DNA from: Pseudovibrio exalbescens
Lineage (GTDB): Bacteria > Pseudomonadota > Alphaproteobacteria > Rhizobiales > Stappiaceae
Direction of reading: 5' to 3'
Assembly (NCBI RefSeq): GCF_028737195.1
Contig: NZ_JAQZAJ010000001.1
Location: 620,001 to 684,000 of the forward strand
DNA: 64,000 nt
Both the position numbers and the translations under genes were made by a program. This document shows positions 33,017-37,243 of the stretch, piece after piece (position 1 is the stretch's first letter; each line of letters starts with the position of its first letter). The notes under the pieces are model-generated. The model saw nothing but the letters and a program-made list of their open reading frames with translations. It searched no databases and was not told the DNA's origin.

Positions 33017-33550
33017 ATGAAAGCTGCCTTTGTCATGTTCGCCGCTTATAACCAGTGGGCGAACAACCTTCTCCTGGAAGAATGTGCCCAGCTTGATGAA
33101 GCGGACTATCACCGTGATCTGGGAGTTTACTTCAACTCGATCCACGGCACGCTTGACCACCAGCTTGTTGCAGACCGTTTGTGGCTTTATCGCTTTACCG
33201 GCGAAGGGGAAGCCTATGACAGTCTGGACGACACGCTGACCGGTGGCTTTGCGGACCTGCGCGAAAAGCGCAAGCTCATGGATGAGCGCATCATCTCGGT
33301 CATCGACCGGATGCAGGAGCGCGACTTCATGCGCACGCTGATCTATCGCACCGTGCGCAAGCCTCTTGTGATGCAGCAGCCCCTGGGGGCGGCGCTGTTC
33401 CACTTCTTCAACCATCAGACCCACCACCGCGGCCAGGTTCACGGCATGCTGACCCAGCTGGGCCGCACGCCCGAGGCGGTGGACATGATCTACTTCCAGC
33501 GCGAAACCGGCCTTGGCATGGCGCGCGAGGAGGACATGGTGCGCCCTTGA
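33017..33550 (+). CDS. DinB-family four-helix metalloprotein
   Basis: Member of the DinB/YfiT superfamily, which includes thiol-dependent S-transferases; the natural reaction is unknown. The 177-aa all-helical protein has the metal-binding triad layout: His48 in SIHGTLDHQLVADRLW, and the HxxxH pair His133/His137 in NHQTHHRGQVHGML, which is the most diagnostic stretch. ATG 33017 has AAAGGA eight bases upstream. The C-terminal ~20 residues are polar. Its transcript ends at an intrinsic terminator just before the repeat array. Confidence 0.85.
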   Translation: MKAAFVMFAAYNQWANNLLLEECAQLDEADYHRDLGVYFNSIHGTLDHQLVADRLWLYRFTGEGEAYDSLDDTLTGGFADLREKRKLMDERIISVIDRMQERDFMRTLIYRTVRKPLVMQQPLGAALFHFFNHQTHHRGQVHGMLTQLGRTPEAVDMIYFQRETGLGMAREEDMVRP

Positions 33551-33588
33551 GCGGCCCGCCATTCTTTAAAAACCTGACCTGACCTTCC

Positions 33589-33618
33589 AAAACCCTGCCC
33601 GCCTTGGCAGGGTTTTTC
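33589..33618 (+). terminator. Intrinsic terminator of dinB
   Basis: AAAACCCTGCC (33589-33599) pairs with GGCAGGGTTTT (33606-33616), followed by T residues. Confidence 0.88.
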
Positions 33619-33648
33619 TTGTTTTAAAAGGAACAGTGCCGGCCAAAG

Positions 33649-35136
33649 TGCGGGATGACGATTGGCGTGTGTGGTGCGCAAAGAACACAACACTGTCATC
33701 CCGGACAAGCGCAGCGCAGATCCGGGATCCAGCGCAAAGAGCGGGAGTACTTGCGAACTCAGAATCCAGGCACCGGTCGTCTGTACTTGGGGGGCCGCCC
33801 GGCTGGATCCCGCATCAAGTGCGGGATGACGGCGGGTGTGTGTGGTGCGCCAAGAACACAACACTGTCATCCCGGACAAGGCGAACGCATGTGAGACGCA
33901 GATCCGGGATCCAGCGCAAGGAGCGTAAGCACCTGCGAACTCAGAACCCAGGCACCGGTCGCCTGTACTTGGGGTGATCGCCCGGCTGGATCCCGCATCA
34001 AGTGCGGGATGACGGTGAGTGTGTGTGGTGCGCCAAGAAAACAACACTGTCATCCCGGACAAGCGCAGCGCGGATCCGGGATCCAGCGCAAGGAGCGTGA
34101 GCATTTGCGAACTCAGAACCTCAAGCACCGATCGCCTTCACTTGGGGTGAGCGCCCGGCTGGATCCCGCATCAAGTGCGGGAAGACGGTGGGGGTGAGCG
34201 GTGCGCCAAGAAAACAACACTGTCATCCCGGACAAGCGCAGCGCAGATCCGGGATCCAGCGAAGAAAGCGTGAGCACTTGCGAGCCCAGAACCCATGCAC
34301 CGGTCGCCTGTACTTGGGGTGAGCGCCCGGCTGGATCCCGCATCAAGTGCGGGATGACGGCGGGGTGTGTGGTGCGCCAAGAAAACAACACTGTCATCCC
34401 GGACAAGCGCAGCGCGGATCCGGGATCCAGCGCAAGGCGCGTGAGCACTTGCGAGCGCAGAACCCAAGCACCGGTCGCCTGTACTTGGGGTGAGCGTCCT
34501 TCTGGATCCCGCATCAAGTGCGGGATGACGGTGGGGTGTGTGGTGAGGTTCACAAAGCGTGGGGTGTCATGGGCCCGGGGTGTCATGGGTGCGCGGGGTT
34601 CGTTGGCGTTGCTGCGAGGAGAGTGAAAGCCTCTCCTGCCCTCGACCTACTCCAGCGTCATCCCGGACAAGCGCAGCGCAGATCCGGGATCCAGCGCAAG
34701 GAGCGTGAGCACTTGCGAACTCAGAACCCAAGTACGGGTCGCCTGTACTTGGGGTGAGCGCCCGGCTGGATCCCGCATCAAGTGCGGGATGACGGTGGGT
34801 GTGTGTGGTGCGCCAAGAACACAACACTGTCATCCCGGACAAGCGCAGCGCGGATCCGGGATCCAGCGCAAGGAGCGTGAGCACTTGCGAACTCAGAACC
34901 CAAGTACCGGTCGCCTGTACTTGGGGTGAGCGTCCTTCTGGATCCCGCATCAAGTGCGGGATGACTGTGGGGTGTGTGGTGCGCCAAGAACACAACACTG
35001 TCATCCCGGACAAGCACAGCGCGGATCCGGGATCCAGTGCAAAGAGCGTGAGCACTTGCGAGCGCAGAACCCAGTCACCGATCGCCTTCACTTGGGGTGA
35101 GCGCCCTGCTGGATCCCGCATCAAGTGCGGGATGAC
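33649..35136. repeat. Array of eight direct copies of a ~137-bp palindromic intergenic element, plus a half copy
   Basis: Full units lie at 33695-33830, 33866-34013, 34049-34186, 34222-34358, 34393-34529, 34657-34793, 34829-34965 and 35000-35136; a right-end fragment sits at 33649-33659. Each unit begins GTCATCCCGGACAAGCGCAG and ends TCAAGTGCGGGATGAC. The left end is a hairpin with ATCCCGGA/TCCGGGAT arms, the right end a hairpin with ATCCCGCA/TGCGGGAT arms, and the two ends are themselves inverted repeats (GTCATCCCG against CGGGATGAC). The core carries a third stem, perfect in the seventh unit (CCCAAGTAC with GTACTTGGG). Spacers of about 35 bp are also conserved, giving a ~172-bp period. Unit 2 has a ~12-bp insertion. 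Similar ATCCCG palindromes are widespread in alphaproteobacteria. Long ORFs through the array are artefacts. Confidence 0.92.
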
Positions 35137-35184
35137 GGCGGGAGTGCGTGGTGGGAGTGCGTGGTGAGCGCGGTGGTGAGTGCG

Positions 35185-35236
35185 GTGGGCGTGTGTGGTG
35201 GGCGTGTGTGGTGGGCGTGTGTGGTGGGCGTGTGTG
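35185..35236. repeat. Minisatellite, four tandem copies of a 13-bp unit
   Basis: GTGGGCGTGTGTG occurs four times without interruption (35185-35197, 35198-35210, 35211-35223, 35224-35236) and is flanked by degenerate GTGGTGAG-like variants from about 35137 to 35265. It lies between the palindrome array and the ABC-F start codon. Confidence 0.93.
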
Positions 35237-35356
35237 GTGAGTGCAGTGGGGTGAGAGGTGTAGCGGGCAACAGGGTGGTTCTTGTGGCGGTGAAAATCTG
35301 AGCTGCGTGGATTTATACCCTTGTGTTTGCAAAAGAACGGCGGCAAACAGACCGGC

Positions 35357-37243
35357 ATGTTACAGATTTCGAACCTTACATACCGCATTGCCGGCCGGCT
35401 GTTGATTGACAACGCCAGTGTGACCATTCCTTCGGGCGCAAAGACAGGCCTTGTGGGCCGCAACGGCGTGGGCAAGTCGACCTTGTTCAAGCTTTTGTGC
35501 GGTGAGATTTCCTCTGAAAGCGGTGATGTGCAGATGCCGCGCAAGGCGCGCATTGGCCAGGTGGCGCAGGAAGCGCCGGGCACGCAGGACACGCTTTTGG
35601 AAGTGGTGCTGGCTGCTGATACGGAACGCACCGCGCTTCTGTCGGAAGCGGAAACAGCGACAGACCCGCATCGCATCGCGGAAATTCACACCCGCCTTGC
35701 CGACATTGATAGCCATAGTGCGGAAGCACGCGCCTCGGCCATTTTGCACGGCTTGGGCTTCAGCTTTGAAGAGCAGCAACAGCCCTGCGCCAACTTTTCT
35801 GGCGGGTGGCGGATGCGTGTGGCGCTGGCAGCGCTGCTGTTTTCTCAGCCTGATCTCTTGCTGCTGGACGAGCCGACCAACTATCTCGACCTTGAAGGGA
35901 CGCTGTGGCTTGAAACCTACATTGCCCGCTATCCCTACCAAGTGGTGCTGATCAGCCACGACCGCGACCTGCTCAACAAGGCCGTGGACAGCATCGTCCA
36001 TATGGATCAAGGCAAGCTGACCTTCTATCGCGGCGGCTATGACAGCTTTGACCGCCAGCGCCGCGAGACCATCATCTTGCAGAAAAAAGCGCAGGAGAAG
36101 CAGGAGAAGGAACGCAAGCACATTCAAAGCTTCGTGGACCGGTTCCGCTACAAGGCTTCCAAAGCCCGTCAGGCACAGTCGCGGCTGAAGATGCTGGAAA
36201 AGATGCAGCCCATCTCCGTGCTGGATGAAAGCTCGGGCCTGCCGATCCGCATTCCAAAGCCAGATACGCAGCTCTCGCCGCCAATCATCAAGCTGGAAAG
36301 CGCCTCGGTTGGGTATGACGACAAGACCGTGCTGTCACGCCTGAACCTGAATATCGACCATGATGATCGGATCGCGCTGTTAGGGGCCAACGGCAACGGC
36401 AAGTCCACCTTCGCCAAGCTGATTGCCGGACGTCTGGCGCTGCAAGGCGGTGACATGGTGCAAAGCGCCAAGCTGAGCACAGCCTTCTTTGCCCAGCACC
36501 AGCTCGACGACTTGATGCCCAACGAAAACCCCATTGAACATGTGCGCCGCCTGATGCCGGAAGCGCCGGAATCCAAGATCCGCGCCCGTGTTGATGGGTT
36601 TGGCCTGCCAACCGACCGGATGCTGACCCCTGCCAAAGACCTTTCCGGGGGTGAAAAAGCCCGCCTGCTCTTGGGCCTGGCCACCTTTTACGGTCCGAAC
36701 CTTGTAATCCTCGATGAGCCGACCAACCACCTTGACATCGATAGCCGCGAGGCGCTGGTGCACGCCATCAATGATTATGAGGGTGCGGTGATCCTGATCA
36801 GCCACGACAGGCACCTGGTTGAGGCCTGCGCGGACCGCTTGTGGCTGGTGGCTGATGGCACCGTGCGCAACTTCGACGGTGATATGGCCGACTATCGGCG
36901 CTACATTCTGCAAGGCGACGCCGCGCCCGCCAAAGATGACAGCAAGGCGGAAGAGAAAAAAGGCTCTGCCAGCGACCGCCGCCGGGAGGCTGCAGAAAAG
37001 CGTGCTCAGCTTGCACCGCTGAAGAAGAAGATCACGGCTGCGGAAAAGGACATGGAGAAGCTGCAGCAACGGATCGAGAAGCTGGACGGCCTGCTCGCGG
37101 ACCCGGAGATCTACACCAAGGCTCCAGACAAGGCGACGGACTACGCCAAGAAGCGTGCCGATACGGTCAAGCTGCTGGCAGAGACAGAAGAAAACTGGCT
37201 CATGCTGTCAGACGAGTATGAACAAGCAAGCGCTGAAGGGTAA
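35357..37243 (+). CDS. ABC-F family ATPase (YheS/Uup type)
   Basis: Soluble duplicated ATPase of the ABC-F group, which acts on the ribosome in translation or antibiotic protection. The 628-aa protein has two ATP-binding domains joined by the P-site tRNA interaction motif linker (about residues 235-300, KKAQEKQEKERKHIQSFVDR and RYKASKARQAQSRLKMLE). Walker A motifs are GRNGVGKST and GANGNGKST; signatures are NFSGGWRMR and LSGGEKARL; Walker B LLLDEPTNYLD and VILDEPTNHLD. A charged coiled-coil C-terminal tail ends the protein. I chose ATG 35357 (MLQISNLTYRIAGR), the family's usual N-terminus; the codons before it run into the repeat region. Closest in architecture to YheS. The VOC gene follows 68 bases later. 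Confidence 0.92.
   Translation: MLQISNLTYRIAGRLLIDNASVTIPSGAKTGLVGRNGVGKSTLFKLLCGEISSESGDVQMPRKARIGQVAQEAPGTQDTLLEVVLAADTERTALLSEAETATDPHRIAEIHTRLADIDSHSAEARASAILHGLGFSFEEQQQPCANFSGGWRMRVALAALLFSQPDLLLLDEPTNYLDLEGTLWLETYIARYPYQVVLISHDRDLLNKAVDSIVHMDQGKLTFYRGGYDSFDRQRRETIILQKKAQEKQEKERKHIQSFVDRFRYKASKARQAQSRLKMLEKMQPISVLDESSGLPIRIPKPDTQLSPPIIKLESASVGYDDKTVLSRLNLNIDHDDRIALLGANGNGKSTFAKLIAGRLALQGGDMVQSAKLSTAFFAQHQLDDLMPNENPIEHVRRLMPEAPESKIRARVDGFGLPTDRMLTPAKDLSGGEKARLLLGLATFYGPNLVILDEPTNHLDIDSREALVHAINDYEGAVILISHDRHLVEACADRLWLVADGTVRNFDGDMADYRRYILQGDAAPAKDDSKAEEKKGSASDRRREAAEKRAQLAPLKKKITAAEKDMEKLQQRIEKLDGLLADPEIYTKAPDKATDYAKKRADTVKLLAETEENWLMLSDEYEQASAEG

Follow-up and report, generated by a model that had tools for sequence, protein, structure and literature searches.

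The array described here is probably a stack of CGTC-type REP heterodimers which resembles a minisatellite, that was seeded between two genes, amplified locally by recombination or slippage, tolerated at a gene's 3' end, and that offers a substrate for recombination. It lies in a stretch of 64,000 nucleotides, called here the window, of the host genome G000, a draft of 4.39 Mb in 26 contigs, and sits within a contig of 1.1 Mb. A sequence-only reading of the same stretch had offered three roles for the array, as RNA, as a nucleoid or topology site, or as a passive product of recombination. The last of these fits best, given the locus-wise similarity of the units, the combinations of variants within the array, a contrast of one versus four dimers at a shared interval, and an inversion bounded by arrays.

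Architecture of the array

The array consists of eight dimers, each joining a palindrome on the + strand (REP-B) to one on the - strand (REP-A), and of a half copy (33646-35137; Table 1). The stem finder returned 16 palindromes at 33694-35137, in strict alternation of +B and -A, and no such palindromes in the rest of the 64-kb window. All 16 stems are 8 bp long and all 16 palindromes have a CCA tail; the stems start with ATCCCG (one with TTCCCG), so that AT occupies the first two positions in 15 of 16, and the tags are TGTC in eight cases, CGTC in seven and AGTC in one. The loop is of 5 nt in every REP-A and of 15 nt in seven of the eight REP-B, the remaining one having 26 nt. A core of about 70 bp joins the two REPs of a dimer, and the units differ from one another by 3.6-13%. 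With at most one mismatch, the 10-mer GTCATCCCGG matches the window 19 times, compared to 4.85 expected and to a maximum of 10 in 100 shuffles.

These results bear out the eight same-orientation units and the half copy at the left edge that the sequence-only reading had described. The regularity that it ascribed to them holds with one exception each. Lengths are nearly identical (138-140 bp) in seven of the eight units, the dimers measuring 138, 150, 140 and then five times 139 bp; unit 2 is longer because of its 26-nt REP-B loop. The period of about 172 bp agrees with the 171 bp reported by TRF and with start-to-start distances of 171-183 bp, save for one interval of 264 bp. Likewise, the conserved spacer of about 35 bp is found in six of the seven gaps between tags (32-33 bp), and the gap after dimer 5 is of 125 bp.

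Table 1. Features of the array and of its neighbours (positions in the window)
Feature	Position	Strand	Basis
DinB-family gene, upstream neighbour	33017..33550	+	Pfam DinB, E 6e-27
Terminator-like hairpin 3' of DinB gene	33589..33616	+	Terminator scan
Half copy at the left edge, with the distal REP-A part and spacer	33646..33693	+	92% to unit positions 124-172 (match 33646-33694)
Dimer 1: REP-B 33694-33731, REP-A 33804-33831	33694..33831	+	Stem finder, dimer alignment
Dimer 2, with 26-nt REP-B loop	33865..34014	+	Stem finder, dimer alignment
Dimer 3	34048..34187	+	Stem finder, dimer alignment
Dimer 4	34221..34359	+	Stem finder, dimer alignment
Dimer 5	34392..34530	+	Stem finder, dimer alignment
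Long spacer, 125 bp, related to C22 and C20 array spacers	34531..34655	+	
Dimer 6	34656..34794	+	Stem finder, dimer alignment
Dimer 7	34828..34966	+	Stem finder, dimer alignment
Dimer 8	34999..35137	+	Stem finder, dimer alignment
G/T-rich right edge, 13-bp tandem repeat	35138..35239	+	TRF 35140-35239; spacer comparison
ABC-F ATPase gene, downstream neighbour	35357..37243	+	NCBIfam ribosomal-protection-like ABC-F, 385 vs cut-off 380 bits

The scan that returned the hairpin 3' of the DinB gene found 3 terminator-like sites compared to 2.1 in shuffles, which makes such sites about equally frequent in both. The right edge of the array is closed by a G/T-rich minisatellite with a 13-bp repeat, which resembles the spacers of other arrays.

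Related arrays and their variation between genomes

The motif GTCATCCCG occurs 165 times in G000, as against 8 times for its reversed control; the unit itself is matched 72 times when hits with E up to 0.001 are counted. Exact REP-A is present in 47 copies, of which 44 have another copy within 1 kb; uniform placement would give 1.0 such copies, and the maximum of 1000 simulations was 8. The view that such palindromes are mostly single or paired is thus wrong for G000. Nor does the window array stand out there as something unusual, since similar arrays are found at many gene ends, each of the further arrays having its own unit, period and mixture of REPs. The window dimer (REP-B/core/REP-A) recurs at C22:280k, C20:641k, C1:990k and C20:181.8k, which makes five loci in G000, and at one locus (C1:217k) of the nearest relative in our search, G011, taken as Pseudovibrio exalbescens DSM 16456; the relatives that rank next also belong to Pseudovibrio. 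Among 61 genomes, exact REP-A was found in nine (47 copies in G000, 32 in G011 and no more than 5 in any of the remaining seven), a pattern that undercounts genomes with diverged REPs, and BLAST detected something related to the unit in 39. An origin from phages or plasmids was rejected, as the unit has no match at E 1e-5 among 50,697 phage and 72,556 plasmid records. A scan of viral contigs with the DinB protein gave no confirmed relative, a result of little weight.

The relationships between units were determined by alignment and tree building with 23 dimers from six loci. Mean identity is 0.91 inside the window array and 0.88-0.95 inside the other multi-copy arrays, compared to 0.73-0.85 between G000 loci and 0.73-0.77 between the window units and those of other loci. 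The tree sorts most units by locus. Those of C22 are not united in a single clean branch, and the single dimer at C20:181.8k groups with the units of G011 C1:217k (0.88-0.92). That units mostly resemble those of their own array most argues for local growth of the arrays, and this locus-wise similarity also supports the earlier suggestion that unit and spacer were amplified together. It should be noted that conservation is much stronger in the stems than in the core, with a mean minor fraction of 0.003 for the REP-A stem, 0.014 for the REP-B stem and 0.248 for the core, which speaks against local growth in that it could mean selection or templated correction. All four combinations occur in 20 of the 45 informative site pairs of the window array, a pattern that is expected if segments were exchanged between units and that repeated mutation can give as well. 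Among 18 spacer pairs compared with shuffles, ten had scores reached by 0 of 200 shuffles, two gave borderline results, with 4 and 8 of 200, and six were not above shuffles (46-93 of 200 as high), the last including window spacer sp5 versus the C1:990k and G011 spacers. Both the long spacer and the right edge of the window array are similar to spacers of the C22 and C20 arrays (score reached by 0 of 200 shuffles), so that the spacer derives at least in part from repeats.

The interval that holds the window array looks different in relatives. At the DinB loci of other genomes, the stem finder detected no REP, be it in 26 loci of 3.2-3.5 kb or in longer stretches around ten of these, among which is G011; looser 9-mer matches in the relatives' DinB loci are isolated only. 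In G011, the 1.6-kb interval between the DinB and ABC-F genes is filled by an unrelated stretch that looks coding; in G012, G001 and G017, no more than about 125 bp separate the two genes.

We further compared 23 G000 loci with 11 loci of G011 and 9 of other genomes, some of them overlapping, and found homologous flanks in seven G000/G011 pairs among them. At such shared addresses, both types and numbers of REPs differ: the finder counted, in G000 and G011 respectively, 2 and 8 REPs in the exchanger/HyuB interval, 9 and 12 at C11:165k, 4 and 10 at C2:51k, and 5 and 2 at C1:993k. The C1:870k pair was left out of this comparison because of a run of N at that locus. The exchanger/HyuB interval contains one dimer in G000 and four in G011, a clean contrast since its flanks are 92-95% identical and free of N. 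No REP was found in six outgroup exchanger/HyuB loci, two of which reach HyuB, which dates the repeat there to the lineage of G000 and G011; these outgroup data give no direction, and are compatible with four dimers from one or one from four.

In addition, arrays flank a rearrangement. The regions G000 C20:28-46k and G011 C1:64-84k are collinear save for one inverted block, of 6.8 kb in G000 and of 5.2 kb in G011 (region L266 4223-11864 against L267 7380-13980). In G011, REP arrays stand in inverted orientation at both ends of the block and have 279 bp in common at 92.8%; in G000, an array is found at the right junction and none was seen at the left. The neighbouring gene is reached by five of the ten outgroup loci, and each of these shows the G000 order, which places the inversion in the G011 line; the other five end before that gene. 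One to three REPs are present in the interval in three of the five informative outgroups (G005, G010 and G012). Recombination between the inverted arrays would be the simplest reading of this inversion. A search for literature on inversions or duplications linked to REPs returned nothing relevant among the matches listed.

Kinship with described repeat systems

As described by Di Nocera et al. 2013 (PMC3733652), CGTC REPs carry an unpaired CGTC tag, often TGTC or CCTC, a CCA tail, a stem of 8-9 bp with AT first and a loop of 4-5 nt, with other lengths in a few species, and have no associated transposase gene. The window palindromes share with these alphaproteobacterial elements the tag, the 8-bp stem with AT, the CCA tail and the 5-nt loop of REP-A, as well as the inverted pairing, a bias towards intervals between convergent or same-direction genes, and the lack of a transposase. 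They differ in the REP-B loop (15-26 nt versus 4-5 nt) and in forming long ordered arrays, clusters and tail-to-tail dimers of CGTC elements being rare according to that paper. By their tag, stem and tail, by their host group and by having no transposase, we assign the window palindromes to the CGTC REPs, of which the REP-B loop is a deviating feature.

The order of the array has parallels in other classes. In Pseudomonas fluorescens SBW25, tandem REPIN clusters and arrays of GI and GIII REPs, of the GTAG class, have been described (PMC3116915). Like the window array, these show ordered, nearly identical inverted REP pairs with flanks and an extra REP at one end. Their two-type alternating arrays reach 12 REPs, compared to 16 and a half copy here; some clusters lie beside RAYT genes, whereas the window palindromes are of the CGTC class and no RAYT was found. 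The window array thus has two inverted REPs as its unit, as a REPIN does, in a genome with no RAYT detected. It likewise resembles the BIMEs and BIME-2 of enterobacteria, which combine a REP, an inverted REP and a linker, often in tandem (PMC8266576): inverted REPs of two types alternate in tandem (8 B+ / 8 A-). Unlike BIME-2, which has a GTAG tag and TnpA-REP, none of the 16 window palindromes has a GTAG tag.

Neisserial NIMEs (PMC3898611) are intergenic arrays of 200-2700 bp made of small palindromes and repeats of 30-160 bp, and have been proposed as recombination sites; the window array is like them in being an intergenic array of small palindromes. Their dRS3 palindromes have been classed as CGTC-1 (PMC3733652). 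The dRS3 pattern is ATTCCC(N8)GGGAAT, which the ATCCCG stems of the window do not match. A phage integrase has been proposed for NIMEs (PMC3898611); an IS110/Piv-like recombinase, an idea taken from the neisserial case, was searched for and rejected, no IS110-type gene being found in either G000 or G011. The genus relative G010 has 38 IS110-type transposase matches. A CRISPR array was ruled out, since six of the seven spacers are near-identical 32-33-mers and not unique.

REPINs are known to form ordered tandem clusters that include their flanks (PMC3116915), and BIMEs and NIMEs to form arrays of a tandem or mosaic kind. As far as our limited literature search goes, what is new is that long arrays of CGTC heterodimers at the ends of many genes are combined with copy numbers that differ at shared addresses and with an array-bounded inversion, with no recognised transposase. 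Judged by title, the matches listed included no paper on such arrays in Pseudovibrio, and a search with the repeat letters gave a single paper, unrelated to judge by its title.

Origin of the array and competing explanations

Under the explanation that we favour, a dimer of two inverted REPs would have arrived in the DinB/ABC-F interval, which is free of such repeats in the relatives examined. Dimer and spacer would then have been amplified in place, by RecA-type unequal exchange, by replication slippage at the hairpins, or by both, and exchange from unit to unit would have mixed the variants. The array may persist at the 3' end of a gene because extra DNA is tolerated there, presumably with no specific regulatory function. 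Copy-number differences and rearrangement end points, seen in sister arrays and not in the window array, would be consequences, the rearrangement being a side effect. Recombination is read here from sequence comparison and was not observed directly. Several findings run against parts of this explanation: the 3'-end bias could mean function instead of tolerance, one dimer type at five loci calls for a transfer step that local duplication alone does not provide, the copy number comes from a draft assembly, and no array was seen at the left inversion junction of G000.

The bias in position, together with the near-invariant stems, makes a functional 3'-end element the main rival. Its hairpins would be selected as RNA, for 3'-end protection or DinB/ABC-F attenuation, or as gyrase or topology sites that relax supercoils, like those of E. 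coli BIME-2. BIME-2 REPs bind gyrase and IHF. A role in topology would agree with the bias of the arrays towards 3' ends of genes. Genes were placed with a simple codon-score gene caller, save at C1:870k, which was placed by hand because of a doubtful REP call overlapping a gene. Among 17 REP groups, which were found via the unit search and are no census, some being neighbours and not independent, nine lie between convergent genes, eight between genes in the same direction and none between divergent genes; these 17 include the window array and one single dimer (C20:181.8k), and omit the contig-end copies on C4, C20, C22 and C26. The background comprised 109 intervals, each 100 bp or longer, from 12 relative loci and the window; of these, 19 are convergent, 57 same-direction and 33 divergent (Fisher test, P 0.006 for the lack of divergent and P 0.003 for the excess of convergent intervals). 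All eight same-direction arrays are closer to the 3' end of the upstream gene, one by just 11 bp. A preference for such intervals is known from the REPs of described species as well (PMC3733652), and the stems hardly vary.

The whole dimer of unit 7 is predicted to fold much better than shuffles, into a single long hairpin (-71.7 kcal/mol, z -6.05). The three hairpins that had been proposed for each unit are not general: a strong central one is predicted in three of the eight isolated cores only (units 5, 6 and 7), and its sequence shows no conservation at other loci. For a small helix in the core, 93% of cells are paired, and its standard-pair changes are one-sided only. Both-sided change was limited to one REP-B pair, in two C1:990k units, which is too few to count for selected pairing, as 89 of 500 shuffles reach as many and the slid control has 2. 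No promoter-like site was found at 33400-35500, and an Rfam scan of 33300-35500 yielded no family that reaches its gathering score (best E 4e-4, 26 bits vs a gathering score of 153). Nothing positive thus came to light for the RNA role previously suggested, and an RNA element was rejected on the promoter, central-hairpin and core-helix results. Considering further that relatives lack the array in the DinB/ABC-F interval, that shared addresses differ between genomes in the types and numbers of their REPs and that the genes beside the arrays are unrelated to one another, we regard a functional element as unlikely.

Repeated insertion of a mobile REP dimer by an unrecognised or broad-range transposase, the latter having been proposed for CGTC REPs (PMC3733652), would account for the scattered copies, for the same dimer at five G000 loci and one G011 locus, and for the terminal inverted structure. 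This recurrence lends partial support to the earlier comparison of the unit to a mobile element. The REP-type (Y1) transposase expected with it was not found: profile matches revealed no RAYT in G000 and no Y1 in G011, and the sole Y1 match in G000 is an IS200 TnpA (132 bits to IS200 and 37 bits to RAYT, cut-off 80) with no such palindrome detected by the stem finder in 3.35 kb around its gene. Across the 61 genomes, presence of Y1 and presence of the unit are unrelated (9/39 vs 7/22, P 0.55), and a RAYT as mover was rejected on these grounds. None of the 20 proteins scanned beside or between arrays matched a transposase, two of them having no Pfam match. As the units also mostly group by locus and share their spacer, an array built by transposition seems very unlikely. 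An artefact of assembly would fit a draft of 26 contigs and the REP-A match found within 400 bp of the start of five G011 contigs (C2, C10, C18, C19 and C31); it is hardly credible for a window array whose units can be told apart and which lies inside its contig with unique genes on both sides. Draft genomes of Pseudovibrio can break or be mis-sized at such arrays.

Returning to local amplification by recombination or slippage, the multiplication of CGTC REPs with no transposase, and whether they are still forming, were left open by Di Nocera et al. (PMC3733652). We tentatively suggest that these REPs are perhaps not dying in the lineage of Pseudovibrio and P. exalbescens, and would live on as minisatellites in active turnover, with no dedicated transposase, whose inverted-REP heterodimers seed at 3' ends of genes, grow and shrink by recombination at shared addresses and provide the inverted homology through which chromosome segments are flipped. 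If so, the number of copies in an array would evolve fast and would drive changes in gene order, and spread between loci would proceed by conversion or by an unrecognised enzyme. The one versus four dimers between sister species and the array-bounded inversion now make the question of CGTC REP multiplication testable.

Other repeats were seen in G000. A further REP type, with a GGGCTTGACCC stem-loop, recurs every few hundred bases at contig ends, on C4, at the end of C20, at the start of C22 and on C26 (L138-L141), as if the assembly had been broken there by long arrays. On C21, a 249-bp tandem duplication (L034 1144-1641) has a terminator-like stretch and one REP-A in each copy. On the same contig, a further DinB-family gene is neighbour to a second REP array (L034 4869-6272), a likeness to the window array that may be coincidental.
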